This document shows positions 4,776 to 39,716 of a DNA stretch of 47,581 nt, piece after piece (the first letter of the stretch is position 1; each line of letters starts with the position of its first letter). The position numbers were made by a program, and so were the translations under genes. The notes below the pieces were generated by a model, which saw only the letters and a program-made list of their open reading frames with translations, made no database searches and was not told the origin of the DNA. Origin of the DNA: Candidatus Poribacteria bacterium (lineage in GTDB: Bacteria; Poribacteria; WGA-4E; WGA-3G); NCBI GenBank assembly GCA_022826805.1, contig JAJDUH010000020.1:1-47581 (forward strand). The letters run 5' to 3'.

Positions 4776-4922
4776 TAAAAAAATGGTTGTCGCGTTAGTT
4801 TTCAGCTATTGACAACTACAAAGCCTTTGACTTTATCACGAACTTTTTTAACTGACCACTGATAATTATTTTCTCTTTGCTATGTTAGTTAGGCGTGCAT
4901 GCACAGATTGTGGAGGAGATGT

Positions 4923-5375
4923 GTGAAATCAATTGATTCTAAACAGGCAGGATTAACGTCTGTACAAATTCTGGTCGTCGTCGTTATCCTCGGCATTGTT
5001 GCCGCAGTGCTTCTGGCACCTCGGCTACTCGGACAAGCGGGTCGTGCTTTACAGGCACAAGCCGCTGAGGAAATTGAAATACTTGGTATCGCGCTTGATA
5101 GATATGCCAAAGATAATGGCGATTATCCATCAACCGAACAAGGTTTGAAAGCACTTTGGGAGAAACCCGAAGCACCACCGATCCCCATAATGTGGGAGGA
5201 ACCTTACATCCAAATTCCGATTACCGAGGATCCGTGGGGAAATCCTTATATCTATATTCGTCCTGGCAACCACGACCGATATGGATACGATCTCATCTCT
5301 TTCGGCAGCGATGGCGTTGAAGGTGGAACGGGTGAAGCGGAAGATGTCGTCAGTTGGATCCGGCGTGATGAATAA
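4923..5375 (+). CDS. Type II secretion pseudopilin, GspG-like
   Basis: A 150-residue protein with a short prepilin leader (MKSIDSKQAG), cleavage after Gly, a hydrophobic helix (LVVVVILGIVAAVLL) and the GspG C-terminal block: DNGDYPSTEQGLKAL, DPWGNPY, then GSDGVEGGTGE, the calcium-site loop of the major pseudopilin. The GTG start at 4923 is preferred over ATG 4899 because GGAGG sits six bases before it and it gives a normal leader. The mature N-terminus is LTSVQ rather than FTLIE, so the almost invariant Glu at +5 is Gln. No other type II secretion gene is in the window, so this is an orphan. It may be a specialised pseudopilin rather than the main GspG. Confidence 0.82.
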   Translation: MKSIDSKQAGLTSVQILVVVVILGIVAAVLLAPRLLGQAGRALQAQAAEEIEILGIALDRYAKDNGDYPSTEQGLKALWEKPEAPPIPIMWEEPYIQIPITEDPWGNPYIYIRPGNHDRYGYDLISFGSDGVEGGTGEAEDVVSWIRRDE

Positions 5376-6445: not shown

Positions 6446-6613
6446 GGAGAAACAGGACGAGTATATTTAGTAGATGAAGTAGGCTTCTTCACGGAAGTAC
6501 TCTCTGAAAACGAACTTAACGATTTTACAGATGGCGGATTGGCAGGCTATGCCGTTGGCGATCCGGCTGGCAAAGTGACAACAACTTGGGCTTTGCTGAA
6601 AATGAAAAACTAA
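6446..6613 (+). pseudogene. Remnant of a LamG-type secreted protein (C-terminus only)
   Basis: Directly after the TAA of the enolase-like gene the same frame runs on for 55 codons to a second TAA. The translation resembles the end of a LamG domain (YLVDEVGFFTEVLSENEL, compare IDEFKIWSVALTEDEV in the gene at 13606) followed by AGKVTTTWALLKMKN. The last part matches the tail shared by the three secreted proteins at 11882-14370. There is no start codon with a ribosome binding site and no signal peptide. Either this is debris of a deleted gene, or occasional stop-codon readthrough would add this tail to the enzyme. Debris is more likely. Confidence 0.65.
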
Positions 6614-11881: not shown

Positions 11882-12556
11882 ATGAAAGCGTTAAACATGT
11901 GGCAGGTTTGGGCGTGTGTCTGTTTCGTTTTCTTACTGACGATACACCCAGCATCGGCGATTCGTTACGAATTCGATAGTGACAAGGAAATTGCAGATTG
12001 GGAATTGGGACCGCAGGCAACAGCGAAAGTGAAAGACGGCATGCTTGAACTTACAGTTGCCGGTGGACAGAATTCTGGTATTTACTTTGGTGAAGAGAAC
12101 TGGACGGATTACCACATGGAAGTCAGGGCGCGAAAGATTGTGGGACCTTATTTCCATCTCTTCGTTCGGACGCAAGAACCGGCAGTGGATTTCTATTTTA
12201 TGGAGATCAGTTACAACTCGCATACCACTTCGCTTTTCATGTTTCAAGGTGGCGGTGCGAATGAGATTACGGGTGGTGATCGCCCGAAACGTCCGGATTC
12301 AAAGGACACGAAAGGTGGCGATGCGTATACCATAGCCTTTGAAGCGGAAGGGGAAACCCTCAGGACCTACATTGATGGGAAACTGATGGTTGAAAATCAG
12401 GATAAGACCTACGATAAGGGACGTCCTGGTTTAGGTGGAAGGGACTCAACTGTTGCCTATGAATACGTTGAAATTAATGGACCCGGTATCCCCCCAACAG
12501 CAGTTGAACCCGCTGATAAATTGGCTATTACATGGGGTGCGTTGAAAAGTAGATAG
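11882..12556 (+). CDS. Secreted concanavalin-like (DUF1080/LamG-type) protein with TTWG tail
   Basis: A 224-residue protein with a signal peptide (hydrophobic VCFVFLLTI, cleavage after HPASA at about residue 26). The rest looks like a single jelly-roll domain of the DUF1080/3-keto-disaccharide hydrolase type: an opening FDSDKEIADWELG, DGMLELTV, YHMEVRARK and TLRTYIDGKLMVENQD. Such domains bind or act on carbohydrates outside the cytoplasm. It ends with AVEPADKLAITWGALKSR, the tail shared with the next two genes. AAGGAGAAAATTCC precedes ATG 11882. It is first of three adjacent genes on one strand. Confidence 0.78.
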   Translation: MKALNMWQVWACVCFVFLLTIHPASAIRYEFDSDKEIADWELGPQATAKVKDGMLELTVAGGQNSGIYFGEENWTDYHMEVRARKIVGPYFHLFVRTQEPAVDFYFMEISYNSHTTSLFMFQGGGANEITGGDRPKRPDSKDTKGGDAYTIAFEAEGETLRTYIDGKLMVENQDKTYDKGRPGLGGRDSTVAYEYVEINGPGIPPTAVEPADKLAITWGALKSR

Positions 12557-12604
12557 ACCCGGGACGGGTTTCAGTGCCCGCCTACAATATATAGGAGGAA
12601 AACA

Positions 12605-13456
12605 GTGTTAAGGAAACTGAGTATTCTTTTTTTCATAGTTCTGGTTGTCAGCCAAGCAGAAGCGAATTACAATTTTGCGGTCCACACAGACTCACATCCC
12701 TGGGCACGTGAGGACGCAAAAGGTGCGCAAGAGGAAATTGATACCCTAATTAAGAATATTGAAAACAAGGTAAACCTGGAGGCTTTTGAGCCCAAGGATA
12801 TTAAAGGATTAGCAGATTGGGTTGCAGCACATACGGAGGGTGGTGGAAATACGCTGATTCTGACAGGTATCACCCCATCAACGATTTATCCGACCGGCAA
12901 CGCAAAGCGAGATGGCTCGCTTCTCGAAGAGTTCCTTGACGCCGGCAACACGATTTTCAATACCGGTGAATACACCTTCTACACATCGGAAGGACCCGCA
13001 GAAACGAACGGACAAGAAGCATTACCTGCTATCATCGACGTTCCAGAAGCTCACGTGTGGATGGGCAGAGGTCCGGACGCTTGGCAAGCCGCGCCAGTGG
13101 AAATGACTCCGACACCGGAAGGCAAAGACCTTATACCGAGTCTGAAAAAGTATAACACGTCTTATCCGTTCCACGTGGAAGATTATGAGAAATCGCCATG
13201 GGAAGTAGAGATCGCGCTGGCTGAAAATAAGAAGGACGACTTACGGATTGACCCAGCAGTGATATTCAACGAAGAGACTGGTGGTCGTCTGGGTATTTTC
13301 GTGCAGACCTATGTTGGTGATGTCCCGCATCCGGGTGTTTCCTGGGGGGCAATTATGGGTGAATTCATCGTTAACTACTATCTACCAGAGGTTTTATCGG
13401 TCGAACCGACTGATAAATTAACAACAACTTGGGGAAAATTGAAATCTCCGTACTAA
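12605..13456 (+). CDS. Secreted protein of unknown function with TTWG tail
   Basis: A 283-residue protein with a signal peptide (SILFFIVLVVSQAEA, cleavage at about residue 20). The mature part is not a jelly roll. Segments such as LADWVAAHTEGGGNTLILTG and GSLLEEFLDAGNTIFNTGEY look like alternating strands and helices of a class I glutamine amidotransferase-like or ThuA-like fold, but no catalytic Cys is evident; this is a guess. It ends SVEPTDKLTTTWGKLKSPY, nearly identical to the tail of the LamG protein that follows. The GTG start has a perfect AGGAGG at 12593-12598, seven bases upstream. The gap to the previous gene is 48 bp, so co-transcription is likely. Confidence 0.72.
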   Translation: MLRKLSILFFIVLVVSQAEANYNFAVHTDSHPWAREDAKGAQEEIDTLIKNIENKVNLEAFEPKDIKGLADWVAAHTEGGGNTLILTGITPSTIYPTGNAKRDGSLLEEFLDAGNTIFNTGEYTFYTSEGPAETNGQEALPAIIDVPEAHVWMGRGPDAWQAAPVEMTPTPEGKDLIPSLKKYNTSYPFHVEDYEKSPWEVEIALAENKKDDLRIDPAVIFNEETGGRLGIFVQTYVGDVPHPGVSWGAIMGEFIVNYYLPEVLSVEPTDKLTTTWGKLKSPY

Positions 13457-13503
13457 GGCGTACAAGGCTCAAACATAGCGTCTTGTATATGTAAAGCGTA
13501 AAG

Positions 13504-13533
13504 GAATTCTAATCTAATTTCAGATTAGAATTC
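13504..13533. terminator. Perfect intergenic hairpin
   Basis: GAATTCTAATCT (13504-13515), a 6-nt loop and AGATTAGAATTC (13522-13533): a perfect 12-bp inverted repeat between the second and third secreted-protein genes. No T-run follows, so it may be an attenuator, an mRNA-stabilising 3' end or a protein site rather than a classic terminator. Confidence 0.5.
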
Positions 13534-13605
13534 TGCTACGACTATACCAGTAAAAAATTGGAGGAAACAGAGGGTCATGCGTACATGATACCCTGAAAAA
13601 GAAAG

Positions 13606-14370
13606 ATGAAACAATTAGGATACTTTTTGACAGCTGCCGTGTTCTTGCTGAGTTGCATGCTTGGACACGCAGCCGATCCGGCGACAGATTTACTTATGTA
13701 TCTACCCTTTGACGAAGGACAAGGTAATAAAGCGGAAGATACCTCTCCTAATGGATTCAGTGGCGATATAAAAAAGGCGAAATGGGTAGAAGGCGTTGTT
13801 GGGCAAGCACTTCATTTCAACAACGGGACTGTTAACTTTGATCCACTGAAAATTGATCAGCCGAAGGAGATGACAATTGAATTTTGGTTCAAACCTGACG
13901 ATGAGATTGAGGGTGGTTCCCGCATCGATCTACTGTATCGTCTCATCGGTGGTGGACGCCCACATATCACTTTCAACCGCGGTGGTGTGTTATTCGGGTT
14001 CTACTTTGCGACGCAAGGCGTAGAATTAGAGGCACTCACGACTTATGATAAGTTTGAACCGGAATGGTACTACTTTGTCGGGTCGCAGAGCAAAAAGACT
14101 GCGTGGATGTATATTAACGGAGAACTCGATTCCGAAGCAGAAGCCGGTGGTGACGCCCGTATGGATTTCGGTACCCAAGGTATGTCTATCGCATCGAATC
14201 AAGGCAACGGGAATTTCTTCAACGGTATGATCGATGAATTTAAGATTTGGAGCGTAGCACTTACGGAAGACGAGGTCAAAGCCAGCATGGCGACAGCCCT
14301 CGACGTGAAGCCGGGTGGTAAACTGACGACGACGTGGGGTAAACTTAAGTCCAAGTCCGTTAGACCTTAA
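13606..14370 (+). CDS. Secreted LamG-domain protein with TTWG tail
   Basis: A 254-residue protein with a signal peptide (FLTAAVFLLSCMLGHA, cleavage before ADPATD; the internal LLSC could also be read as a weak lipobox). It holds one LamG/concanavalin-type domain: YLPFDEGQGNKAEDTSPNG, VEGVVGQALHFNNG, TIEFWFKPDD, then MYINGELDSEAEAGGDARM and FNGMIDEFKIWSVALTEDEV, the typical closing strand. It ends KPGGKLTTTWGKLKSKSVRP. ATG 13606 has only a weak GAAAAAGAAAG upstream, while a good GGAGG at 13560-13564 sits before a three-codon frame (ATG 13577), so translation may be low or coupled. LamG proteins bind glycans or other proteins outside the cell. Confidence 0.8.
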   Translation: MKQLGYFLTAAVFLLSCMLGHAADPATDLLMYLPFDEGQGNKAEDTSPNGFSGDIKKAKWVEGVVGQALHFNNGTVNFDPLKIDQPKEMTIEFWFKPDDEIEGGSRIDLLYRLIGGGRPHITFNRGGVLFGFYFATQGVELEALTTYDKFEPEWYYFVGSQSKKTAWMYINGELDSEAEAGGDARMDFGTQGMSIASNQGNGNFFNGMIDEFKIWSVALTEDEVKASMATALDVKPGGKLTTTWGKLKSKSVRP

Positions 14371-14401: not shown

Positions 14402-16987
14402 CTACGGTATCATCGAAATGCGGAGAGGGAGGCTTGCTGAGCGTCCCTCCGCATCCACACAGGTCAGCAGATGTTTTCCTTTGATGGGCGTAAGCCAGTA
14501 TTGTTGTCTCGCATTGCCTTTGAAAATTAACTCGCCATCCAGAAACCAGAACAGTTCCTGTGTCCGGTTAGAAGCAGAGGCAGAGAGCCGAATTTTTTGG
14601 TTTTCCAGTGGCACACCAGCCCGAATATAATAGACGGTGTCTTTTGTAGGAGACAAGATGATTGGTGCGGTTCCTGCGATCGCGCCGTTGCACAAAGGAT
14701 TATGTTCTGGTAGGACAGGCACAGCGAATCCATTTTTCGCCAACCACGTTGCTGCTTCGGCGGGCCACTCCTCAAAGATAATAGTTTTATCTCTCTCTTG
14801 CGACGCTGTCTTATGAAGGTTCCGACAGTGGGAACAGAGACTGTAACCCGTTGCTTCATCAATATAAACACGTTTGTGCATTGTACAGGTCGCGACAGGC
14901 GAGATACCCGGGATATATACGTCGCTCTTACGAGTAGGGCAGTGCGGTGACACAGGTGCACCACTGAGCGTACATACCTGTCGTGTTTTCAGTTGTTCAG
15001 GTTTCGTGAACCAACGATGTATATCTTGCCCTGTCAGTGCGGTAAAGAGCGCAAATAAAATAGGGGTTGCTGCATCTGTACCGCTCATCATCGCCAAACC
15101 CTTCCCATCAAAGTTTCCCAACCACACACCAATTGTTAATTTCGGTGAGTATCCGATACACCATGCGTCTCTGTGTCCATAGGAGGTCCCGGTTTTCCAC
15201 GCAATTTTCGGCAGATTCATCGTGCTTTCAAAGGCTTCAGGATTTTTAACGGTGTTCGCGGGGAGTTGCGAAGTTGTGAGCATCTCAGTTATGATGAAAC
15301 TCGTACCCGGGGAGAATAAACGTTTCGGAACTCGCTTCCTCTCTGTAAAACCTGAAGGCACAGCACCCTGAAGATTTTGTTTATTGATAAGTTGGGGAAG
15401 CGTTAATTGATAAGGCGCGAATTCTCCCATATTCGCCAACCCAGCGTAAAGTGTTGTTAGTTCAAGCAAGTTCACTTCGCATCCACCCAGCACCATAGAA
15501 AGCCCATACTTTTTCGCAGGTGCCAGTGTCGAAATTCCCGCCTGTTTGAGAAAAGCATGCAGTGTATAGTTTTCCAGACGCGCATTAAGATTGACAGCTG
15601 GTACATTGAGAGAGCGTGCGAGTGCCTGAAGCGTGGTAACGTAACCACTATATTTGCCGTCGTAGTTTACTGGTTCATACCCGGCATAGGTAACAGGGAC
15701 ATCAAATAAGAGTGTCTCTGGTGTAACCAATCCTTGTTCTATCGCGAGCGCGTAGACGAAAGGCTTTAGTGCGGAGCCGGGAGAGCGCGGCGCGAGTGTG
15801 CCGTTTATCTGTCCTGATGCCTCACGGTCAAAAAAGTCGTGGGAACCCACCATTGCTAAAACATGTCGGCTTTGGGTGTCCATAACGACGACAGCCCCTG
15901 TACTTGGCAAACGGTGACGGACAACGTCTGCAAGTGAAGTATCGAGATATTCTCGAAGGATACGCAGTGCTGTCTCTTGGACTTTTGCGTCTATCGTCGT
16001 GTATATTCTGCTATCCGTTGTTGGTTCAGGAGATTGTCTTTCTCCTCTGACCAGCATGCGTGCAAGGTGCGGGGACTTGAAGGGGAGAGGGTAGCGTTTT
16101 GTCGGAATTGGTTCTTGCAATGCTTCCCGCCACTGTTGTTCGGAAATCTGCTGACGCATGAGGAGTTGGTTCAGTACCTTTTCTCGCGCCTTTCTTGCAT
16201 TTTCTGGGAACCTATCTGGACGTAGGCGTTCCGGAGAGTTTGGAATCGCGGCGAGGAGTGCAGCTTCACCGAGGCTAATCAGATGCTGGGGTTTGTTGAA
16301 GTAAAACTGTGATGCCGCTGCTGTACCGACGATGTTGCCGCCGTAGGGGAGCATATTGAAGTAAAAAGTTAAAATCTCGGACTTGGAATAAGCAAGTTCA
16401 AGTTGGAGGGCGCGAAACATCTCACAAAGTTTGTTTGGAACGTTCCGATCTTTGGGCTCCATCAGTCGTGCAAGCTGCATGGTAATTGTTGAGCCGCCGC
16501 GCACGACCTTGCCCGCTGTGAGGTTGTCATAAAGGGCAGTTGCAATGGATACTGGGTTAATGCCCCAGTGGTAGTAAAACCACCTGTCCTCAGAGGTTAG
16601 CATCGCCTGATGTAACAACGGCGAGACACCCCCTTTGATATTCTCGCGTTTCACATTTGCATAGGGAGCACTTTCAGAACTGTCCGTCACAACTTCGGGC
16701 ATACGCCACATGCCGTCAGCAGCTAAAAATGCGCGGAGCCATTCACCGTTTCTATCTAAGACGATAGGGGATGCTGGCGGATGGAGACGTGATTTGGGGA
16801 GCGGAAAACACCAGTTCGCAGCAACAAAGAGCACAACAACAGAAACCGGTAGTAGCAGCCATTTTATAGTTGTCAGTTTTTGGTTGTCAGTTTTCGGTAA
16901 CGCGTTGTGGCAGTCAGGTTTTGCTCTCCTGCTACAAACTGCTCTTAACTGATAACTCATAACTGATAACCTAAAACCATTTTTCAT
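14402..16987 (-). CDS. pbpC: Penicillin-binding protein 1C
   Basis: An 861-residue bifunctional peptidoglycan synthase. After a membrane helix (about residues 43-60) comes the GT51 transglycosylase with catalytic Glu133 in TSEDRWFYYHWG and RGGSTITMQLARL. The transpeptidase has Ser405-x-x-Lys408 (PGSALKPF), Ser459-Leu-Asn461 and the KTG box at 598-600. The C-terminus is the BiPBP_C domain typical of PbpC. The ATG overlaps the stop of the alpha-2-macroglobulin gene as ATGA, so the two are translationally coupled, the partnership known from E. coli pbpC/yfhM. The cytoplasmic N-terminus is odd: residues 4-41 are encoded by repeat-like DNA rich in AACTGATAAC and AAAACTGACAACC. Confidence 0.92.
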   Translation of the reverse strand: MKNGFRLSVMSYQLRAVCSRRAKPDCHNALPKTDNQKLTTIKWLLLPVSVVVLFVAANWCFPLPKSRLHPPASPIVLDRNGEWLRAFLAADGMWRMPEVVTDSSESAPYANVKRENIKGGVSPLLHQAMLTSEDRWFYYHWGINPVSIATALYDNLTAGKVVRGGSTITMQLARLMEPKDRNVPNKLCEMFRALQLELAYSKSEILTFYFNMLPYGGNIVGTAAASQFYFNKPQHLISLGEAALLAAIPNSPERLRPDRFPENARKAREKVLNQLLMRQQISEQQWREALQEPIPTKRYPLPFKSPHLARMLVRGERQSPEPTTDSRIYTTIDAKVQETALRILREYLDTSLADVVRHRLPSTGAVVVMDTQSRHVLAMVGSHDFFDREASGQINGTLAPRSPGSALKPFVYALAIEQGLVTPETLLFDVPVTYAGYEPVNYDGKYSGYVTTLQALARSLNVPAVNLNARLENYTLHAFLKQAGISTLAPAKKYGLSMVLGGCEVNLLELTTLYAGLANMGEFAPYQLTLPQLINKQNLQGAVPSGFTERKRVPKRLFSPGTSFIITEMLTTSQLPANTVKNPEAFESTMNLPKIAWKTGTSYGHRDAWCIGYSPKLTIGVWLGNFDGKGLAMMSGTDAATPILFALFTALTGQDIHRWFTKPEQLKTRQVCTLSGAPVSPHCPTRKSDVYIPGISPVATCTMHKRVYIDEATGYSLCSHCRNLHKTASQERDKTIIFEEWPAEAATWLAKNGFAVPVLPEHNPLCNGAIAGTAPIILSPTKDTVYYIRAGVPLENQKIRLSASASNRTQELFWFLDGELIFKGNARQQYWLTPIKGKHLLTCVDAEGRSASLPLRISMIP
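16868..16972. repeat. Repeat-like DNA inside the pbpC 5' coding region
   Basis: On the minus strand GTTATCAGTTATGAGTTATCAGTT (16946-16970, two near-copies of GAGTTATCAGTT) is followed by AAAACTGACAACC twice in tandem near 16870-16895. Such ACTGATAAC/ACTGACAAC strings normally sit between genes; here they are translated as the cytoplasmic tail of PbpC. Traces of a related string (GTGGCAGTCAG) recur at 43372-43382. Confidence 0.5.
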
Positions 16988-19900
16988 TGCTCTGCGACCA
17001 CTTCAATGCGCGTGCTACCCGTTACAGTAGATTTTGTTGCATCGTACATTGCTTCGGCGGCGATGGGTGGTAAGATAAACTCGCCTTGCGTGACTGCCCG
17101 TAGTGCGTAATAGAATTTACGTTCGCGCTGCCGCGGGAACGTGCCGAAGAAAATGAGTCGATCATCTCGAATGTCAAGATAGTCAGGCTTGAAGTCCTGT
17201 GCTTTCAACCACGGAATGCCTGCGCGAGACTCCAGTCGCGGGTTCTCAATCTCAAAACCGGTTGGCAACATATCGACAACAACAACGTTTTCCAGATTAG
17301 CAGTAAGTGCTTTGACGGTTATCTCTGCGACGATTAAGTCTCCATGTACAAACTGCCGAGTGAGTTCTTCGCCATCTTTGTTGAAGTATCGACGGCGTAT
17401 TTGCAGCTCGCGCTCGTATTCCTCAACAAAGGAGCCGCGTTGAATGCCGAATGCACTCCAGTAATAGTAGCAGCTTCCTTCCCCTTTGATAGAGAGCTGC
17501 ATACGCTCACCGTCCCACGCGTCATCGGTGTATCGTATTTGCGTTGCATCAAAGTCAGCGAAGTGCTCACCATTGCGCTTGAGGATGCCAGTGTAGTTTC
17601 TATCCATCTGCTTTTTCATAATCTTGCCGAGAGCGAGGAAAGCAAAAGCGTTATCCTGGGTTGTCCTCCACCGGTTTCCATCGGACGCTGCCTCTCTCAG
17701 ATTCTTAACAAGCATAGGAATTGATGGATGATTTTCGTTGACTTCGGCAAGCATATCCAGCATGATGGCTTGTGCTCGAATTGGAGAATTAAGGGTGCCA
17801 CCTGTCTCCCAATGCACATTATTCTTACCATTACCATTAACACTCACTGAGACTGACACAGGTAGCATCGAGAGTGCGGTCTCTAATTCACCACTAAGGG
17901 CAAACGCACCAGCGAGTTGGAAGTGGCTATAATCGCTGAGTCCACTCAAACCTCTATTCTTGAGATAGTTCATCGTTCCGCGATCCGGTTGTCCAGCAGC
18001 AGCTAAGACATAAGATGCATAGGTCGCAAGTGCGATATTTGCCTTTATCTCTTTAGTGCTATCTTGGCTTTCCCTACCTGGTGAGAACTTCGCCTGTTCC
18101 CTCAAACCGTCCAACATCGCATCGTAAACCCGGTCTGCAACCTCATAGCCTGCTTTTCTCGCTTCAACGAGGAAATGGGAGGCATAGATACTGCTCCACG
18201 GATTGGTGTAAGTCCCGCCGGGCCAGTAGGCAAACTGATTTCTTGATGTTAGCATGCTTTCCAACTTAGTGATACCTGATGTAATATAATGATCCACTAA
18301 ATCATCATCTGCAAGTATAGGTTCAACACTTTGCGCCAGATCACTGAAATAAAGCAGCGGAAAGATTTTGCTTACCGTTTGCTCCAAACATCCGTGAGGA
18401 TAACGGATAAGATAACGGAGGCTATCGGCGAAGGCAATATTTGGAAACGGCGATAGCGTGAGACTGAATTCGGACGAATCTGGTATCAAATCCGCGGGGA
18501 AAATGAAATCAACTGGTTTGCCGGCGCGCACCACGCCATGTCCTGTTTTTGTGATAGGTGGGGCAGTAGAGCGCAGCGGAAGTTGGACGTCCATCTGTGT
18601 TGTCTCGGTATTACCGTGCGCAGACAGATTGAAACTGACCTTTCCTATCGTATCCTGAACGCGGATGTCAAAAAAGACTTGTGCTTCTGTCCCTGCTCCA
18701 ACAGAAATCAGTCGGGGTTGGGAAATCCCTCCTACAGGGGGAGATGGCATTTCAGACGCATTAGTGGGACTTGCGGAAAGCAGCTGCAGATCACCTACCG
18801 CTTGCAATTTGACGGTAAATTCTCCATCCTCGCCTGTACCGTTAAAAAGCGTGACAGGTACACGGAGTTTATCTCCGCCTGCCAGAAATCGGGGGAATGT
18901 CGGTGTTAAGACAATAGGTTCACGGACAGTTAAGTATGCTTCGGCAGCACCGTAATCTGCTCCGGCGAAGGCAACAGCCATCAACCGCAGTTTCCCATTG
19001 AATTGCGGCATCCTGAATTGAATAGCACCACGCCCTCTTCCATCGGTTTTCACGAATCCAGACCAAAGCGAGACAGGTTTCACCCGTGTGATGCTGGCGG
19101 TATTAATCCGTTTCCTTCGTGCTGCTTGCAGTACGCCATCGCCACCCGTACTGGAATTATCAGTAACGTTAGCGATTTCAGGCAGAATCCCACTATACAG
19201 ATCAAAAGTTCGTGTTTTTAATCCGCGTTGCCGATAGAAATAATCGTGTGGATTAGGGGTTTGAAAGTCGGTTAGCGCGAGAATGCCTTCGTCTACAGCT
19301 GTAATACAGACCTCATATTTTTGCCACGAGCGTGCACCTTTTACTTGAAATGCAATGTTCACATCGCTGTTTGGACGGACTGTATTTTCAGCGTTTTCTT
19401 CGCCGGAAAGCGGAATCTTTGAAGATACACCAGCTTCATCCGTTTGTGAGAGAAACATATTTACGGAAAGTTTTCTCTGAGTTGCATCAAGTTTCAAGGG
19501 AATTACACCAAACGCCCGCGCTGGCAGCGGTTGACGATCATCCACTGATATAGTCTCCATAGGAACAGTGCGAATCAGGGTTGCAGAGAGGTAGACGTTC
19601 GGTCTATAGCTGGGCCGTATTGGAATCGACAAAGTTGCGGTATTCTCTTTCATCACGATCGTGCGGTATCTCAGCAATTTTTCTCGCTCAACAGCGAGTA
19701 GAAGCGTACCGGAGAACGGTGCCTTAATAGACAGTTTTGCCGTTTCGCCCGGACGGTAGGCGGACTTATTGAGCGTCAAATCTAAGCGGGTAGGATGCTC
19801 CATAGACACCGGGGTGCTTCCCCAACCGTTAACATAGAATCCAATTTCTGCCGTTGCAGTTGATTCGAGATCCTCAAGTCGGACGCGATACTCACCGTAG

Positions 19901-22596
19901 TCCGAAGGGGTTAGCGTCAAGGTTTGCACCATCTCTGCTGAAGTTAACGTTTGCGTTTCAACCTCAGTCATCTGGGGTTCGGAAAGGTATTCGTAACGCC
20001 CGGTTGTATTCTGCCGCAGGATTGTATTCCAATGGACTTTGTGAAGGCTTAGTCGTAAAGCTCGTCCGGGGGCAACGACCATAGTATCATCAACAGCTAC
20101 ATAGTCGATGCGAACGGGTTGGTTAATTTTCGCCTCCGCTGTATTCGTGCGCCGAAGTCCGACGTAATGTGAATAGGGATGGATAACGACTCGATGTGAA
20201 GCCGTAACGGCTCTGCCTCCAATTTCACTGACGGTAGCTGTGAGAATACCGTTTAACAGTGATGGGGCTTTCAGGGTTGCTGGCAGCGTGAATTGATAGT
20301 GTGCCTTACCGGCTGAATTGGTTTTGGCTTCTCCCAATTCAATGCGTTGGCTTTCAAACTGTTTAGCAAAGTTTGATTCAGTGTTTCCGAAGACGAAGGA
20401 ATGCCACGCTGTCGCCTCGGTATCCGCTGGTGAAGCATTAGCACTGTCGGAGTCTACGAGGGAAACTGCTTTCAATTCGCATGAAACCAGAACCTTCCGC
20501 CCCACAGCCGGCGGGCCGAACAGATTAACAGCATTCACTTGAATATCGAGTTCGTCTCCGAGCCCGTAGATGGATTTATCCGTAGTGATGGCGACCTTCA
20601 TCCGGTCCGGCATGAACTCCTCAATTTGAAACTGGGTTCTTCCAACTACTTTATCAGCAATCAGCATCTTGGCAATATAGTTGCCTGTTTGGGCGTAATC
20701 AGGGATCGAAATGCTCACCTCACAGCCCCCAGTTTTTGTCGTTTGTTGCCTTAGTTCCCGTAGAATTCTGCCATCCGGCGCGAGTACCTCAACACGGGTA
20801 GGCAGTGGCTGTGGCGTTACTTGTTTCGGTGCGCGGACGATACCAGCAAGTTGAACAGTCTCACCCGGTCGGTAGACCCCCCTATCTGTGTAGAGAAAAG
20901 CTTCATAGCCTTTTTGCAAATAGGCAGGTCCTGCGATGTTGAAGTCGGCGGTTGCGATTTCGTGCCGATCCAATTGAATGAAAGCAAGGTCGTCATGTTT
21001 CGCGACGGTAATCATAAACGGCGTGAAGCCTCCGGTTTTCTCGGTGACATCCTTAAACTCGATAAATCCCGCCCAGTTGGTTGTGCCACTGAGGAGTGTT
21101 TGGTTATTGTCGCTGATGAGTTTAACGCGCGCCGTTGGCACTGCTGCACCAGTAGCGAGAGATTTTACCCAAACATAGAGTCTATCGCCAGCGCGTTTGG
21201 CACTGATCCCCAAATCCGTTATAAGTACCCATTGGTGTGCACTATCCCATTCCCGCTGTGCGTTTCGCGCCACAACCTTGAAGATACCGACATGTTCGTC
21301 TGAGAGATAATCCGCCAAAGAGATCGGCACTGTCACCTCTTGGTTCAATTGCGCTGGCACATCAAGCATGTCTGTATGGATAGGCTTACCTAAGTTCTGG
21401 CTCCAGCGGCTCCATCTTTCCAATTTTGAGACATAGATAAGGTTGTTAGCAAAAATCTTTTCGATATCAAGTTTCACGCGTTCAATGTTAATCGTTGCGA
21501 GCCCGAGGTTCAACTGTCCTTTTCTGGCGAGAAAGAAACCGTCTCCGAGAAATCGGAGTTGGGGTCGGATATCTGGAATCGTGAGCCTTGTCATATAGTC
21601 TTGTTTCAAAACGGCATCGTTTCGTGCTGTCAACCCGCGTCGAATTTTTAGTGTATAGGTAGTGCGCCGTTTAAAATTACCGTGGATCTCTATGTTCCGA
21701 TAGTCGGCTATAACTTGATATTCTACTGCTGGTGTGAGTTCCAGGTAGGTTTCAATGGCATCGCCGAGTACAGGTGCGCTAAAACTGACTGAAATATAGG
21801 GTGTGCCATCGCTTTCCCAAACATCTGAGTACGTTACCCCGAGTGTCCCTCTGCCACGGAGTATGACGGGTGTAATATTTGCTTTTTCGAGACCGATTTG
21901 TCCACCTATGCATTTGAATCCCTTTTCAATTTTAACTTTTATTTGTCGGTTTGCGTTCCCACGCTTTATTCGGTTAGTTTCAAACCTCACTGTTCGTGCT
22001 GTGGCGGCACCTGTTTCAATCTGATAGGGGATTTCTGTTCCATCATCCAATTCAATAGAGAGATGCGCCTTTAAATCAGCGGTAGTTACAGGATAGTTGA
22101 AAGCAATCGTTCCGAAACCTGTCGCGTCTTCACGTGCATCATTGGTCGTAAACTCCATGCGCGTTTGCTCGATTGTGAAAGGTTCGGTAGCGAATTTGAA
22201 TTCTTTTTGTCCGGTGAGCAAAAATGTTTCAGATGGGTTGAAGTCGGGCGTGAGTTGAACAGTATACTGTGCAGCGGGTGCTAAAGGAGCATCTAAGAAA
22301 AATCCGATTCTGTCGCGTGCGATCCAGCGTGCAGTTCCTTGAACAGCTGGCGTAAACCGAAATGCTTCAGCTGGAACTTCGGTCCCGACGCGCGACTTAT
22401 CGACGACCGCCTCTGAAAACGTAATCGAAAAATCGACCCATTGTGGTACTTCTCCCTGCGGCGTGAAGGTCTTGACGCTGTACCGTGCTTGCGCACCGAT
22501 GTTATCCTGTATAATATAGAAGATACAGGCAACAAGGATTAGTGCCATTAGCCCGATCACACCGATCAAAAAGTTTTTGGAAAGTTTAACTACCAT
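16984..22596 (-). CDS. Bacterial alpha-2-macroglobulin lipoprotein
   Basis: An 1870-residue member of the bacterial alpha-2-macroglobulin family (YfhM/YfaS type). The N-terminus has a hydrophobic stretch with a lipobox, LVAC at about residue 24, so it is probably membrane-anchored. Macroglobulin domains follow, including DRGVYRPGETVQLAGIVR and SAYRPGETAKL. The thioester motif YPHGCLEQ is intact with Cys at residue 1403, followed by the alpha-helical thioester domain (WPGG, then a stretch listing ANIALATYASYVLA) and the receptor-like C-terminus. These proteins trap proteases that breach the outer membrane, while the partner PbpC repairs the wall. Length is close to the larger bacterial members. 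The pbpC start overlaps its stop codon. Confidence 0.92.
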   Translation of the reverse strand: MVVKLSKNFLIGVIGLMALILVACIFYIIQDNIGAQARYSVKTFTPQGEVPQWVDFSITFSEAVVDKSRVGTEVPAEAFRFTPAVQGTARWIARDRIGFFLDAPLAPAAQYTVQLTPDFNPSETFLLTGQKEFKFATEPFTIEQTRMEFTTNDAREDATGFGTIAFNYPVTTADLKAHLSIELDDGTEIPYQIETGAATARTVRFETNRIKRGNANRQIKVKIEKGFKCIGGQIGLEKANITPVILRGRGTLGVTYSDVWESDGTPYISVSFSAPVLGDAIETYLELTPAVEYQVIADYRNIEIHGNFKRRTTYTLKIRRGLTARNDAVLKQDYMTRLTIPDIRPQLRFLGDGFFLARKGQLNLGLATINIERVKLDIEKIFANNLIYVSKLERWSRWSQNLGKPIHTDMLDVPAQLNQEVTVPISLADYLSDEHVGIFKVVARNAQREWDSAHQWVLITDLGISAKRAGDRLYVWVKSLATGAAVPTARVKLISDNNQTLLSGTTNWAGFIEFKDVTEKTGGFTPFMITVAKHDDLAFIQLDRHEIATADFNIAGPAYLQKGYEAFLYTDRGVYRPGETVQLAGIVRAPKQVTPQPLPTRVEVLAPDGRILRELRQQTTKTGGCEVSISIPDYAQTGNYIAKMLIADKVVGRTQFQIEEFMPDRMKVAITTDKSIYGLGDELDIQVNAVNLFGPPAVGRKVLVSCELKAVSLVDSDSANASPADTEATAWHSFVFGNTESNFAKQFESQRIELGEAKTNSAGKAHYQFTLPATLKAPSLLNGILTATVSEIGGRAVTASHRVVIHPYSHYVGLRRTNTAEAKINQPVRIDYVAVDDTMVVAPGRALRLSLHKVHWNTILRQNTTGRYEYLSEPQMTEVETQTLTSAEMVQTLTLTPSDYGEYRVRLEDLESTATAEIGFYVNGWGSTPVSMEHPTRLDLTLNKSAYRPGETAKLSIKAPFSGTLLLAVEREKLLRYRTIVMKENTATLSIPIRPSYRPNVYLSATLIRTVPMETISVDDRQPLPARAFGVIPLKLDATQRKLSVNMFLSQTDEAGVSSKIPLSGEENAENTVRPNSDVNIAFQVKGARSWQKYEVCITAVDEGILALTDFQTPNPHDYFYRQRGLKTRTFDLYSGILPEIANVTDNSSTGGDGVLQAARRKRINTASITRVKPVSLWSGFVKTDGRGRGAIQFRMPQFNGKLRLMAVAFAGADYGAAEAYLTVREPIVLTPTFPRFLAGGDKLRVPVTLFNGTGEDGEFTVKLQAVGDLQLLSASPTNASEMPSPPVGGISQPRLISVGAGTEAQVFFDIRVQDTIGKVSFNLSAHGNTETTQMDVQLPLRSTAPPITKTGHGVVRAGKPVDFIFPADLIPDSSEFSLTLSPFPNIAFADSLRYLIRYPHGCLEQTVSKIFPLLYFSDLAQSVEPILADDDLVDHYITSGITKLESMLTSRNQFAYWPGGTYTNPWSSIYASHFLVEARKAGYEVADRVYDAMLDGLREQAKFSPGRESQDSTKEIKANIALATYASYVLAAAGQPDRGTMNYLKNRGLSGLSDYSHFQLAGAFALSGELETALSMLPVSVSVSVNGNGKNNVHWETGGTLNSPIRAQAIMLDMLAEVNENHPSIPMLVKNLREAASDGNRWRTTQDNAFAFLALGKIMKKQMDRNYTGILKRNGEHFADFDATQIRYTDDAWDGERMQLSIKGEGSCYYYWSAFGIQRGSFVEEYERELQIRRRYFNKDGEELTRQFVHGDLIVAEITVKALTANLENVVVVDMLPTGFEIENPRLESRAGIPWLKAQDFKPDYLDIRDDRLIFFGTFPRQRERKFYYALRAVTQGEFILPPIAAEAMYDATKSTVTGSTRIEVVAEQ

Positions 22597-24225: not shown

Positions 24226-24798
24226 TTACTCAAGTTCCGTAAAAACATAATCAATATCTTCGGCTTGGGTGTGACATCCCCAACAGACCCCATCTCTGGC
24301 TATTTCCCTGAAGTCGGCATCGGATGCGTTTCGGACGTATTCGATGAACTCCCAATCGTTGTGATCAGGGTCCACGCCTGCTTTTTTTCGCATAATTGCG
24401 ACGAGTCCAACAAAGTCCTTACCAGGACGCGTTGCGTCTTTTACAACAATGCTGCCGTCGGGATATGGAAACTCCTGCTTACCATTAGGTGCGATGACCT
24501 CTCGCGTTTTGTTGACATAGACGTTTTTTGTGCCGTTGTGCGGGTCCCCACCAGGGACAGGCGGTATAGGTTCAGCATTCAATTTCAACCACTGTGTGTA
24601 TCCCGCCACATCTTTAGGGAGGCCTGGAAGGAGGGCTGCCGGTTCTTCAGATTGGACAGGTTCCTCCATTGTTGTCTCTTCTCCTGGTGTTTGAACGAGT
24701 TCTTCCAATTGCTTTTCACTAGTGCAGGCAATAGAAAACAGACACGACGCCATTATTATCACCAGGTTTCGTAAGAGATGCTGTGTTTGGGTTTTCAT
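24226..24798 (-). CDS. Cytochrome P460-like lipoprotein
   Basis: A 190-residue exported protein. The N-terminus (LVIIMASCLFSIACTSEKQ) is a signal peptide with a probable lipobox at IAC. An acidic linker leads to a domain matching the cytochrome P460 pattern: FPYPDGSIVVKDATRPG, GLVAIMRKKAG, DWEFIEYVRN and a single haem c site CWGCH (172-176) near the end, then DIDYVFT. Family members oxidise hydroxylamine or bind NO, but many relatives have no known activity. Catalytic cross-link Lys cannot be confirmed by eye. It is first of a two-gene operon with the cytochrome/barrel protein and would sit on a membrane facing the periplasm, a plausible electron donor or acceptor for it. Confidence 0.7.
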   Translation of the reverse strand: MKTQTQHLLRNLVIIMASCLFSIACTSEKQLEELVQTPGEETTMEEPVQSEEPAALLPGLPKDVAGYTQWLKLNAEPIPPVPGGDPHNGTKNVYVNKTREVIAPNGKQEFPYPDGSIVVKDATRPGKDFVGLVAIMRKKAGVDPDHNDWEFIEYVRNASDADFREIARDGVCWGCHTQAEDIDYVFTELE

Positions 24799-30844: not shown

Positions 30845-31393
30845 TCACTCTTGCGGAGGCTTCTCTTCAGTCGATTGCTCTAATTCCTGGAATTCTGCTG
30901 TGTTACGGATGAGGTCAAATGCGGGTTCTGTTTTTGCAGCGGCAAGCGCTGCGTCGTCCACCCGAATTGCTTCACGTAACGAGGCAATTGAGAGTGTTTT
31001 CTCCGCCTTATGTGAATAGGCGACAGCGAGATTGTAATGTGCCTTTGCGAAGTCAGCATCTAACTGGGTGGCGCGTTCCCACGCTTGAATAGCCATGTCA
31101 AGATCACCTTGGTTTCCATAGATAACACCCAATGTGAAAAACGGCATTACCCATCCGGGTTCGTTCTCAATCGCCAAAGTGAGTTCCGTGATAGCTTGTC
31201 CGAAGTTGCCTTGATCGGCGTATGCCATACCCCAGTTGTAGTGTGCGACAGCGACTTCGTTGGGTTCAGGAGCTTCCGCACTTTGTGAATAGGGGATGGG
31301 CTTCGGACCACACGCGGTCAGGTAGAACATCAACCCTACGATCGACAGTAGCATACCGGAGCGTAGCGTGGTCAGTCCATATAGGAAAGTCAT
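30845..31393 (-). CDS. TPR-repeat lipoprotein
   Basis: A 182-residue exported protein. The signal peptide (MLLSIVGLMFYLTAC) ends in lipobox LTAC. Three tetratricopeptide repeats follow: AHYNWGMAYADQGNFGQAITELTLAIENEPG, FFTLGVIYGNQGDLDMAIQAWERATQLD and AHYNLAVAYSHKAEKTLSIASLREAIRVD (each given in part of its 34-residue unit). TPRs bind partner proteins, so this is probably an envelope assembly factor. ATG 31393 is preferred over 31408 since GGAGGAAAAAATT sits right before it. First gene of the run with the kinase and ABC-F. Confidence 0.82.
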   Translation of the reverse strand: MTFLYGLTTLRSGMLLSIVGLMFYLTACGPKPIPYSQSAEAPEPNEVAVAHYNWGMAYADQGNFGQAITELTLAIENEPGWVMPFFTLGVIYGNQGDLDMAIQAWERATQLDADFAKAHYNLAVAYSHKAEKTLSIASLREAIRVDDAALAAAKTEPAFDLIRNTAEFQELEQSTEEKPPQE

Positions 31394-31444
31394 AATTTTT
31401 TCCTCCATCTCTCCGTTATATTTTAGCAGAAATTGCGCTTGGAA

Positions 31445-37604: not shown

Positions 37605-38504
37605 CTATTGAACTGAGAGGAATTCTGTAATTCTCTCCATAACGACTTGCGGGTCATCCTGTGTAGGCAAGAATTGAGAATCTGCAATTCCCATTGATTT
37701 CAGCCAGACTCGCCAATATTCTTTAACAATTTCCAAATCAAGCATATGCCGATGTGTAATTTCAACCATCAAGAACTTCACGTTGTAATCGCTGAAATCT
37801 TTTTCAATTTCTAACAAACCATGTTTTTCAGTGTGAAATTTCTGTTTCCAGTTTGGGGTTTCGCGCAGCTTGGCGACTGCACGATAGGAAATATAGGTTC
37901 TTTTGGGTCGTTCAACCTGAATACTATGGTTGAAATCAAGGTAACCATCCGAAAGACAAATAATGTAGTTACGAGCATCCGGCTTTAGATAGACTTCGGT
38001 ACTGTCCCGAAACCATTTCCAGATATCCGATCCAGTGAATTGCTCCAGTTCATTGACGGATTGGTACAATTCACGGATTGCCCCGAGCAGCCTTGTTTTC
38101 ATTTTTCTAAATTCCGGGGCCCCACCTGCTCTTTGCTTACGCGTCCGCCATATTTTGAGGTTCGCCAATGTTGTCTGTGAGATTGAAGGAACCCCTGGCT
38201 GTTCAGGGACTACAAAAGCGAGTGTATCCTTGGAACCAATATACAGGCTTGGACGGACAAATTTCTCCTCAAAAATATCTACAATATTTTCCGTAATCTC
38301 AATGTCTTTTTCAATTTGGTGAGGATTTTTTTCTTTAGAAACCCGGTCGGAGGTATCAACGATAACAATGATATTTGCCGGTTTTGTAAGCGATTGTTGT
38401 GACGACCGATCCTTAGCATCTGATTTGTCATTCGTGCACCCTACGGTTAGTGCCAAAGCAGTAACAACAAATAAGTACGCAAAAACGCTAATTTTTTCTT
38501 CCAC
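37605..38504 (-). CDS. Lipoprotein with a von Willebrand factor A-like domain
   Basis: A 299-residue exported protein. The signal (FAYLFVVTALALTVGC) ends with lipobox TVGC. ANIIVIVDTSDRVSKEKN resembles the first strand and MIDAS loop of a VWA domain (DxSxx pattern, here DTSDR), and NYIICLSDGYLDF the later D-containing strand, so a metal-dependent adhesion fold is plausible. The family is not recognised beyond that. The start is GTG 38504, only eight bases from the end of an IS3 element, so its natural promoter and ribosome binding site have been replaced and it may be silent or 5'-truncated. Confidence 0.6.
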   Translation of the reverse strand: MEEKISVFAYLFVVTALALTVGCTNDKSDAKDRSSQQSLTKPANIIVIVDTSDRVSKEKNPHQIEKDIEITENIVDIFEEKFVRPSLYIGSKDTLAFVVPEQPGVPSISQTTLANLKIWRTRKQRAGGAPEFRKMKTRLLGAIRELYQSVNELEQFTGSDIWKWFRDSTEVYLKPDARNYIICLSDGYLDFNHSIQVERPKRTYISYRAVAKLRETPNWKQKFHTEKHGLLEIEKDFSDYNVKFLMVEITHRHMLDLEIVKEYWRVWLKSMGIADSQFLPTQDDPQVVMERITEFLSVQ

Positions 38505-38592
38505 ACACGGCTTGTACTGCCACCGGAAATTTAGACCACTCTCTAATATAAGATTGTGCTACAATGACAATCTATTTGAAAGGAGTTATCCG

Positions 38593-38877
38593 ATGGCGAA
38601 ACGCAGAAGATTCACTACTAAGTTTAAAGCAGAAGTTGTGCTTGAGGCACTCCGCGGTGAAACTTCACAAGCGGAACTGTGTCGGCGCTATAATCTCAGT
38701 GAAAACCAAGTCTCAACGTGGAAACGGCAGTTTCTTGAAAATGCCGAAACCTTTTTTCAATCTCCAGAGAAGCACGCCGATGCCTCTGTGGAACGCATCG
38801 CTCAACTCGAGCAATTCGTTGGGAGGTTGACGCTGGCGTTGGAAGTTGAAAAAAAAGCATCGACGTTGTTGGATTGA
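38593..38877 (+). CDS. IS3-family transposase OrfA
   Basis: A 94-residue helix-turn-helix protein (FTTKFKAEVVLEALRGETSQAELCRRYNLSENQVSTWKRQF) that binds the IS ends, with a C-terminal leucine-rich coiled part (IAQLEQFVGRLTLALEVEKK). Near its end an A8 run (38849-38856) is a typical -1 slippage site. The -1 frame is open from there into orfB, so the OrfAB fusion, which is the active transposase in this family, can be made. AAAGGAG precedes ATG 38593. Confidence 0.9.
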   Translation: MAKRRRFTTKFKAEVVLEALRGETSQAELCRRYNLSENQVSTWKRQFLENAETFFQSPEKHADASVERIAQLEQFVGRLTLALEVEKKASTLLD

Positions 38878-39716
38878 GTCCATCTCAACAGCGACATATC
38901 GTTGAGAAGTTGCCACCCGATTACTCGATGCGAGAGATTTGTGAGGTGCTGGGTTTCAACAAGAGCAGTTTCTATTATCAACCCAAAAGCGACACCTCTG
39001 AAGACGTCTTGCGAGCTGAAATACAGCAGTTAGCGGCGCAGTATCCGACGTATGGGTATCGGCGCATCAGAGCGTTGCTGCTGCGTCAAGGATACACCGT
39101 CGGGTATAAACGTGTTGCCCGATTGATGAAAGAAGAGAATCTCTCGGTATCGGTGAAACGTGTCTGTCAAACCACGAAATCCTTTCAGGGTCGAGAGTCT
39201 TGGGTCAATAGAGTTCAGACCCTTGAGATCTCTCGAGAGGATCAAGTCTGGGTCGGCGATATTACCTACGTCCGTCTCAAGAGACGTTTCGTCTATGTCG
39301 CTGTGCTTATGGACATCTTCACTCGAATGATCAGAGGATGGCAGGTTGGTCCGCATTTGAATACATCTCTGACATTGAAACCGCTCCAAGAGGCACTCTT
39401 GGAAAGCGGGTCCCCGGAGATCCATCATTCCGATCAAGGTGCGCAATATCTTTCAAATGCTTATCTCTCGACCCTCAAAGCACACGGTATTGAGATTTCA
39501 TTAGCACGTCGTGGGCGTCCTTGGGAGAACGGATATGCCGAAAGGTTGATCCGAACGCTGAAGGAGGAAGAAGTTCACCTCAATGACTACGAGGATATTA
39601 CCGAGACTCGAGAACGCATCGGGCATTTTATCACACAGGTGTATCACCACAAACGTCCACATTCGGCGTTAGGGTATCTGACACCTATCGAATTTCAACA
39701 GCAAACCTTCTCTTAA
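38874..39716 (+). CDS. IS3-family transposase OrfB (DDE catalytic part)
   Basis: A 280-residue rve-type integrase domain with the DDE triad: Asp in VGDITYVR, Asp in HHSDQGAQYLS and Glu in NGYAERLIRTLKEEEV. The HTH_21 segment (YPTYGYRRIRALLLRQGYTVGYKRVARLM) is intact. It starts nominally at TTG 38874, overlapping the orfA stop as TTGA, but is most likely made as a -1 frameshift fusion with OrfA. No stop codons or damage, so the copy looks active. Confidence 0.92.
   Translation: MSPSQQRHIVEKLPPDYSMREICEVLGFNKSSFYYQPKSDTSEDVLRAEIQQLAAQYPTYGYRRIRALLLRQGYTVGYKRVARLMKEENLSVSVKRVCQTTKSFQGRESWVNRVQTLEISREDQVWVGDITYVRLKRRFVYVAVLMDIFTRMIRGWQVGPHLNTSLTLKPLQEALLESGSPEIHHSDQGAQYLSNAYLSTLKAHGIEISLARRGRPWENGYAERLIRTLKEEEVHLNDYEDITETRERIGHFITQVYHHKRPHSALGYLTPIEFQQQTFS

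Follow-up and report, generated by a model that had tools for sequence, protein, structure and literature searches.

Many proteins of the Poribacteria that are predicted to be exported end in a short linear tail, which very probably serves as a sorting or surface tag. The tail came to light in a 47,581-nucleotide stretch of Candidatus Poribacteria DNA (contig JAJDUH010000020.1 of assembly GCA_022826805.1, analysed whole and hereafter called the window), where three adjacent genes encode proteins with the common ending V-x-P-x-x-K-L-x-T-T-W-G-x-[LI]-K. A first-pass annotation of the window had described these as three consecutive signal-peptide proteins with differing bodies and the same tail, and the open reading frames (ORFs), a hydropathy rule and Pfam all agree: the N-termini of proteins 1, 2 and 3 score 3.04, 3.40 and 2.56, respectively, and pass the threshold of 1.8, while the body of protein 1 matches PF06439 (expectation value [E] 8.4e-10), that of protein 3 matches the LamG family PF13385 (E 4.1e-20), and that of protein 2 has no Pfam match. 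The annotation had proposed that the tail is a sorting, secretion or surface-attachment signal, and had reasoned that the idea would fail if related tails were found on proteins without signal peptides, in the middle of proteins or within a single domain family. None of these was observed, and the proposal is supported by the findings below, from which we infer the sorting role itself.

The position of the tail was assessed in 212 sequence records totalling 1.20 Mb, with 10,065 stop-to-stop frames of at least 50 residues; the records were chosen for holding a related motif irrespective of its place in the frame. All 269 occurrences of a relaxed motif lay no more than 12 residues from a stop codon (range to the C-terminus, 1 to 12 residues; mode, 3), these being counts of motif matches and not of all tails, since the relaxed motif misses variants, that of window protein 1 included. 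The reversed motif occurred once in the same records, mid-frame, and an earlier, narrower motif had given a single exception in 76, a short protein at locus L058. With a profile of 16 columns built from 54 tails, 319 of 320 matches scoring at least 10 and 329 of 334 scoring at least 5 fell within 12 residues of the stop (9,140 closed frames).

Tail proteins have N-termini of the export type. As judged by the hydropathy rule (not by SignalP), which was applied alike to other ORFs of at least 150 residues, a signal-peptide-like N-terminus is present in 238 of 249 complete tail ORFs compared with 241 of 565 others, and several of the 11 tail ORFs that failed the rule look truncated. An A-x-A-type cleavage site was found in 200 of the 238 tail proteins and in 126 of the 241 controls, and the length deciles of the tail proteins run from 226 to 285 residues. 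A second membrane helix is absent from all 238 and present in 34 of the 241 controls. No known sorting-signal model of NCBIfam (E up to 0.1; TIGR04183 and TIGR04131 among them) matched any of 86 tail proteins chosen for diversity. The Pro-rich hinge said to precede the motif did not prove general; one position is Pro in 65% and Ala in 25% of the 238 tails.

The bodies that carry the tail are varied. Single-linkage clustering of the 238 proteins gave 27 body families, the largest of 141 members and nine of them singletons, and Pfam analysis of diverse tail proteins returned 33 families, some overlapping (the best 25 of 33 are listed), with DUF1080, LamG, CBM9, PD40 propellers, HmuY, CBM4/9 and F5/8-C included; the tail is therefore not restricted to LamG bodies. 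When the 86 diverse members were aligned, the sole invariant columns were the Trp and the last Lys of the tail. Nearly all of them had been picked by motifs that hold these two residues, and hence the alignment shows only that no body column is common to all.

The tail is conserved as a protein sequence while its DNA varies. The cores of the 238 tails are encoded by 234 distinct DNA strings; among 255 pairs with an identical ten-residue core, the DNA was the same in 7 and different in 248, with a mean of 5.9 of 30 bases changed, and all four ACN codons are in use at both Thr positions. Positions outside the selecting motif, which itself held the K, W and K, are also constrained, with Val at -5 in 97% and Pro or Ala at -3 in 90% of the 238 tails. 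An unbiased view is afforded by the families of protein 2 and of a HmuY-type tail protein, because these were gathered by their bodies. In alignments of 53 members each, from which cut-short members were excluded, the tail Trp (W276) is invariant in the protein 2 family, and both the Trp (W211) and the Lys (K215) are invariant in the HmuY family. Protein 1 has 133 homologues, and 112 of the best 120 listed end in the loose motif W..[LI]K, the eight misses comprising three substituted tails and five truncated or shifted ends. The 84 homologues of protein 2 have the tail in 79 cases (loose motif); four of the other five are fragments or have shifted ends, and the fifth (P0043) has NLAVTW. Truncated or shifted ends thus account for nine of the 13 misses in these two families together.

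A profile search of the Poribacteria, recommended at the outset, found matches at E up to 0.001 in all 84 genomes, from 10 to at least 111 in each; the top counts are lower bounds, and the counts take matches irrespective of their place in the frame. A longer exact DNA pattern is present in 82 of the 84 genomes, its control giving zero matches in every genome, and the two genomes that it missed were recovered by the profile with 10 and 31 matches. In the window's own genome (5.09 Mb in 80 contigs), the core DNA pattern is matched 140 times when one mismatch is allowed, compared with 21 times for its backward reading. A scan of one genome per species (at least 111 stretches; a sample) returned 80 loci among the matches listed, 77 of them titled Poribacteria. 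Three metagenome-assembled genomes of other groups, a pseudomonadotal (L130), a planctomycetotal (L150) and a deltaproteobacterial (L168) one, have 1, 2 and 1 pattern matches per genome, respectively, possibly from mis-binned contigs or rare transfer. No earlier description of the tail was found in the open literature searched; other papers fall outside that scope.

Structure prediction places the tail of protein 2 outside the fold. The model has a mean predicted local distance difference test (pLDDT) score of 87.5, with 192 residues at 90 or above and the tail (residues 269 to 283) below 50; the tail is accordingly predicted to be disordered, a free appendage on a confidently modelled body. 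The first-pass annotation had given the bodies as DUF1080, unknown fold and LamG, and of these the first and third are confirmed, while the second needs correction, in that the protein 2 model resembles a ThuA-like protein (best solved match 4jqs, E 5.5e-5; template-modelling scores 0.46/0.51). An amphipathic helix was also considered for the tail and set aside, as it was no better than in shuffled columns (its value is equalled by 66 of 200 shuffles at 100 degrees and by 15 of 200 at 160).

The HmuY-type proteins (PF14064, E 1.3e-20 for L109) bear on what the tail may replace; their structure model (pLDDT 37) was unusable. HmuY of Bacteroidota is lipid-anchored on the cell surface. Among the best 120 of 192 homologues of the poribacterial protein, 119 have the tail, the remaining one being cut within it, none has a lipobox, and all those with a named phylum are Poribacteria; two of the five solved relatives of HmuY are named lipoproteins. 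The tail may thus replace a lipid anchor. As searches with protein 1, protein 2 and HmuY gave Poribacteria wherever a phylum was named, most rows being nameless, such a swap of tags can be argued only through the solved HmuY relatives. Over the whole set, 13 of 238 tail proteins match a loose lipobox pattern, as do 26 of 241 controls, and 4 of the 238 match a strict pattern. In the window, the ORFs at 24226-24798, 30845-31408 and 37605-38504 have lipobox-like N-termini (by eye) and no tail, which fits tail and lipid anchor as alternatives.

With respect to the machinery that might read such a tag, sortase (PF04203) was found in none of the 84 Poribacteria genomes and in three of 14 controls, and exosortase (PF09721) in three of the 84. 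Sequence relatives of type IX secretion components are widespread. At E up to 0.001, SprA_N was matched in 78 of the 84 genomes, 30 of which exceed the curated cut-off; Peptidase C25, of the PorU type, was matched in 83, and neither occurred in the 14 controls. The PorV/PorQ family was matched in all 84 genomes, passing its cut-off in every one and with 8 to 24 matches in each, and was matched in one of the 14 controls. Such numbers of PorV/PorQ matches suggest several substrate classes or shuttles. The window's genome encodes an SprA-type protein (E 7.2e-42, 142.9 bits), three PorU-type proteins (367.7 to 382.5 bits, E about 1e-110) and 14 PorV-family proteins, one PorU-type gene lying directly upstream of a PorV-family gene. 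By these matches the poribacterial type IX system looks real but divergent. The available part of a 2014 single-cell study reported type IX sorting domains in Poribacteria, their structural genes not having been found (PMC3909097); contrary to that statement, putative relatives of the machinery are present in nearly all genomes. Of three papers in which both Poribacteria and type IX terms occur, two do not deal with the machinery of Poribacteria, the third being PMC7440613. The classic type A sorting domain (TIGR04183) has 50 matches in the window's genome, 45 of them on frames of at least 574 residues, and the NPFNPET motif of that domain is absent from all 238 tail proteins. Comparison of the bodies of 238 tail proteins with 35 type A proteins gave 23 weak BLAST matches, all to three of the latter, which is only suggestive of shared bodies.

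Given the many PorV-family barrels, the three PorU-type enzymes, the sortase search that found none and the 111 or more tail matches, a short type IX signal is the best guess for the tail. The proposal that it hands exported proteins to the divergent type IX system for display on the cell surface falls just short of even chances, and a type IX route in general stands at about half. In this scheme, Sec would carry the protein out of the cytoplasm and its signal peptide would be removed. With the body folded and the tail still free, the tail would dock on an outer-membrane barrel of the PorV/PorQ family at the SprA-type translocon, making contact through its fixed Trp together with the Lys and Leu/Ile that flank it; the 14 barrel genes of the window's genome are the candidates. 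Cleavage or attachment of the protein by a PorU-type (C25) enzyme may come next. Surface display, recognition by the type IX system and any cleavage or attachment are steps that we infer. More tentatively, the linear 16-residue tag, not a folded domain, may route small proteins, up to 100 or more in each genome, through PorV-family members dedicated to them, and so replace lipid anchors. Published excerpts provide precedent: type IX cargo exits by Sec and is taken up by PorV at SprA (PMC11969387; PMC12618676), translocation of green fluorescent protein to the surface required the last 22 residues of one type IX domain (PMC3120885), PorV binding is predicted for short type IX domains of 40-51 residues (PMC11969387), and different types of signal use different shuttles (PMC12618676).

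Several observations weigh against a type IX role. Known type IX signals, so far as the same excerpts describe them, are folded domains of 40 to 235 residues, the tail has no evident resemblance (by eye) to the type A ends of its own genome, and an amphipathic-helix reading of it is unsupported. Only 6 of the 14 PorV-family genes of the window's genome pass the family cut-off, and its SprA and PorU matches lie under the curated equivalog cut-offs (200 and 420 bits). In 17 other genomes, the neighbourhood of one PorV-type gene includes a tail gene in two, and among the 92 of 159 non-tail neighbours of tail genes that were scanned, no partner recurs above 5 in 92, the commonest being FG-GAP/ASPIC and GFO/IDH at 5 each. 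Tail genes are often in tandem, so that duplication spreads them too, and since nearly the whole phylum has both the tail and the machinery of type IX secretion, their co-occurrence does not discriminate.

Adjacency of PorV and tail genes was dropped as a line of argument. The two cases in the 17 genomes, one in the same genus as the window's genome (G077, with a broken frame) and one in the same family (G046, near a second PorV-type gene), both belong to its own family, and adjacency found only in close relatives is read as local synteny; a regular expression had seen no tail gene in any of the 17, and the profile re-check found these two and none in the other 15. The three PorV-tail loci of the window's genome had been picked because a tail gene was nearby. 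The single partner transporter or peptidase that the first-pass annotation had hoped for was accordingly not pinned down. Tail genes themselves adjoin one another, with 70 of 74 tail-tail neighbour counts on the same strand (every pair enters this tally twice, once from either gene). Close to the SprA-type gene and divergent from it, with one lipoprotein-like gene in between, is a gene whose tail protein ends in the variant GRLTTVWASVKSER (L306:13975-14808).

The strongest competitor, though an unlikely one, is that the tail retains proteins at the surface by binding a receptor, S-layer or polysaccharide in an undescribed system, the type IX machinery having no part in it. A linear 16-mer would suit docking on a fixed receptor; the absence of any general genetic link between tail and PorV genes, the lack of evident resemblance to type A ends and the near confinement to one phylum (77 of the 80 loci among the matches listed) all accord with this. 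Against it, no candidate receptor emerged from the 92 neighbours, and a type IX system, with its many PorV-family barrels, is available. It is improbable that the tail is instead a periplasmic mark for quality control or processing, read by a C-terminal protease or chaperone with no surface sorting: the strict C-terminal place and the free tail of the protein 2 model would be expected of such a mark, but the lectin-like, carbohydrate-binding, propeller and HmuY bodies read as surface or extracellular (from the 25 of 33 families listed), and the spread of 1 to 12 residues to the C-terminus argues against a reader of the end carboxylate. That the tail is a domain edge or duplication trace, jobless and inherited with LamG-type genes, might be entertained from the 141 of 238 proteins in one single-linkage cluster and the frequency of tandem tail genes; it is very improbable, being already contradicted by the 26 further body families, the differing DNA of identical cores in 248 of 255 pairs, the lack of an invariant body column in the 86 diverse members and the predicted disorder of the tail on a folded body. 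A DNA or RNA element at gene ends (a terminator or recombination site) translated by chance has next to no likelihood, for although the tail always lies just upstream of a stop codon, third codon positions are free and 234 of the 238 DNA cores are distinct.

The window also holds a fourth copy of the tail, which had been called a decayed one at 6569-6610; it is real, and is what remains of a LamG gene whose front part is gone. Its frame aligns with the end of LamG protein 3 (E 3e-6, a single comparison) and continues in frame immediately beyond the stop codon of the gene upstream. Pfam gives no match for 6446-6613. A degenerate DNA pattern of the core (up to two mismatches) has four matches in the window, this copy included, compared with 0.07 expected from shuffles. 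An IS3-type transposase pair (by eye) lies at 38368-39716 and is a possible source of local gene decay. Elsewhere, a lone pseudopilin-like ORF (GspG-type by eye) adjoins metabolic genes at 4899-5375, and a penicillin-binding protein 1C-like gene stands beside a very long alpha-2-macroglobulin-like gene at 14402-22596 on the minus strand (by eye).

Table 1. Tail proteins, their tails, the remnant copy and the candidate type IX genes; positions are those of the window unless a contig or locus is given, and the tails of proteins 1, 2 and 3 are themselves among the 54 profile seeds.
Feature	Position	Strand	Basis or remark
Tail protein 1, 224 residues	11882..12556	+	ORF; PF06439 (DUF1080) body; signal-peptide-like N-terminus about 11882-11959 (by eye)
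Tail of protein 1, VEPADKLAITWGALKS	12503..12550	+	Tail-profile match, G000:C65
Tail protein 2, 283 residues, GTG start	12605..13456	+	Signal-peptide-like N-terminus; ThuA-like fold (predicted)
Tail of protein 2, VEPTDKLTTTWGKLKS	13400..13447	+	Tail-profile match
Tail protein 3, 254 residues	13606..14370	+	Signal-peptide-like N-terminus; LamG body (PF13385)
Tail of protein 3, VKPGGKLTTTWGKLKS	14305..14352	+	Tail-profile match
LamG tail-protein remnant, C-terminal end only	6446..6613	+	Tail about 6554-6610; without signal peptide
Divergent candidate type IX genes (SprA-, PorU-, PorV-type; last two adjacent)	G000:C10:21790-28536 (L306:5791-12537); G000:C15:74380-81962 (L309)		

Should the tail prove to be such a signal, it would be the smallest and the sole unfolded type IX signal known to us, or else the first example of a sorting system not seen before. 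It would represent a main code by which a whole phylum, known mostly from sponges and assembled genomes, sorts its surface proteins, would predict which unnamed poribacterial proteins face the host, and would provide a short, portable address tag. The puzzle of 2014, sorting domains without machinery, is reopened, as putative relatives of that machinery can now be recognized in nearly all genomes.

Among known systems, the type A signals of type IX secretion (TIGR04183, with the PorV shuttle and PorU sortase) are most readily compared with the tail: in both, a Sec signal peptide is combined with a C-terminal signal on unrelated bodies, there is no membrane helix, and SprA-, PorV- and PorU-type genes are present in the same genome. 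The type A signal is, however, a folded domain, of about 89 residues from the NYPNP motif in the window's genome, whereas the tail is linear, about 16 residues long, predicted to be disordered in the one good model, and carried by small proteins without a known type IX domain; the signals described for Prevotella intermedia in part of PMC11969387 have 40-51 or 69-82 residues. With MYXO-CTERM, PEP-CTERM, GlyGly-CTERM and LPXTG tags the tail shares a short C-terminal motif, many substrates per genome and restriction to one phylum or clade (compare MYXO-CTERM in the available part of PMC11980579), but those tags join the motif to a membrane helix and a basic end, and the tail has no helix. Substrates of sortases and exosortases need the matching enzyme, and in Poribacteria sortase was not found and exosortase is rare; those of rhombosortase and myxosortase have a tripartite end with a helix, unlike the tail proteins, which lack a second helix (the enzymes were not searched for). 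The lipoprotein anchor possibly does the same job as the tail, and sits at the opposite end of the protein.

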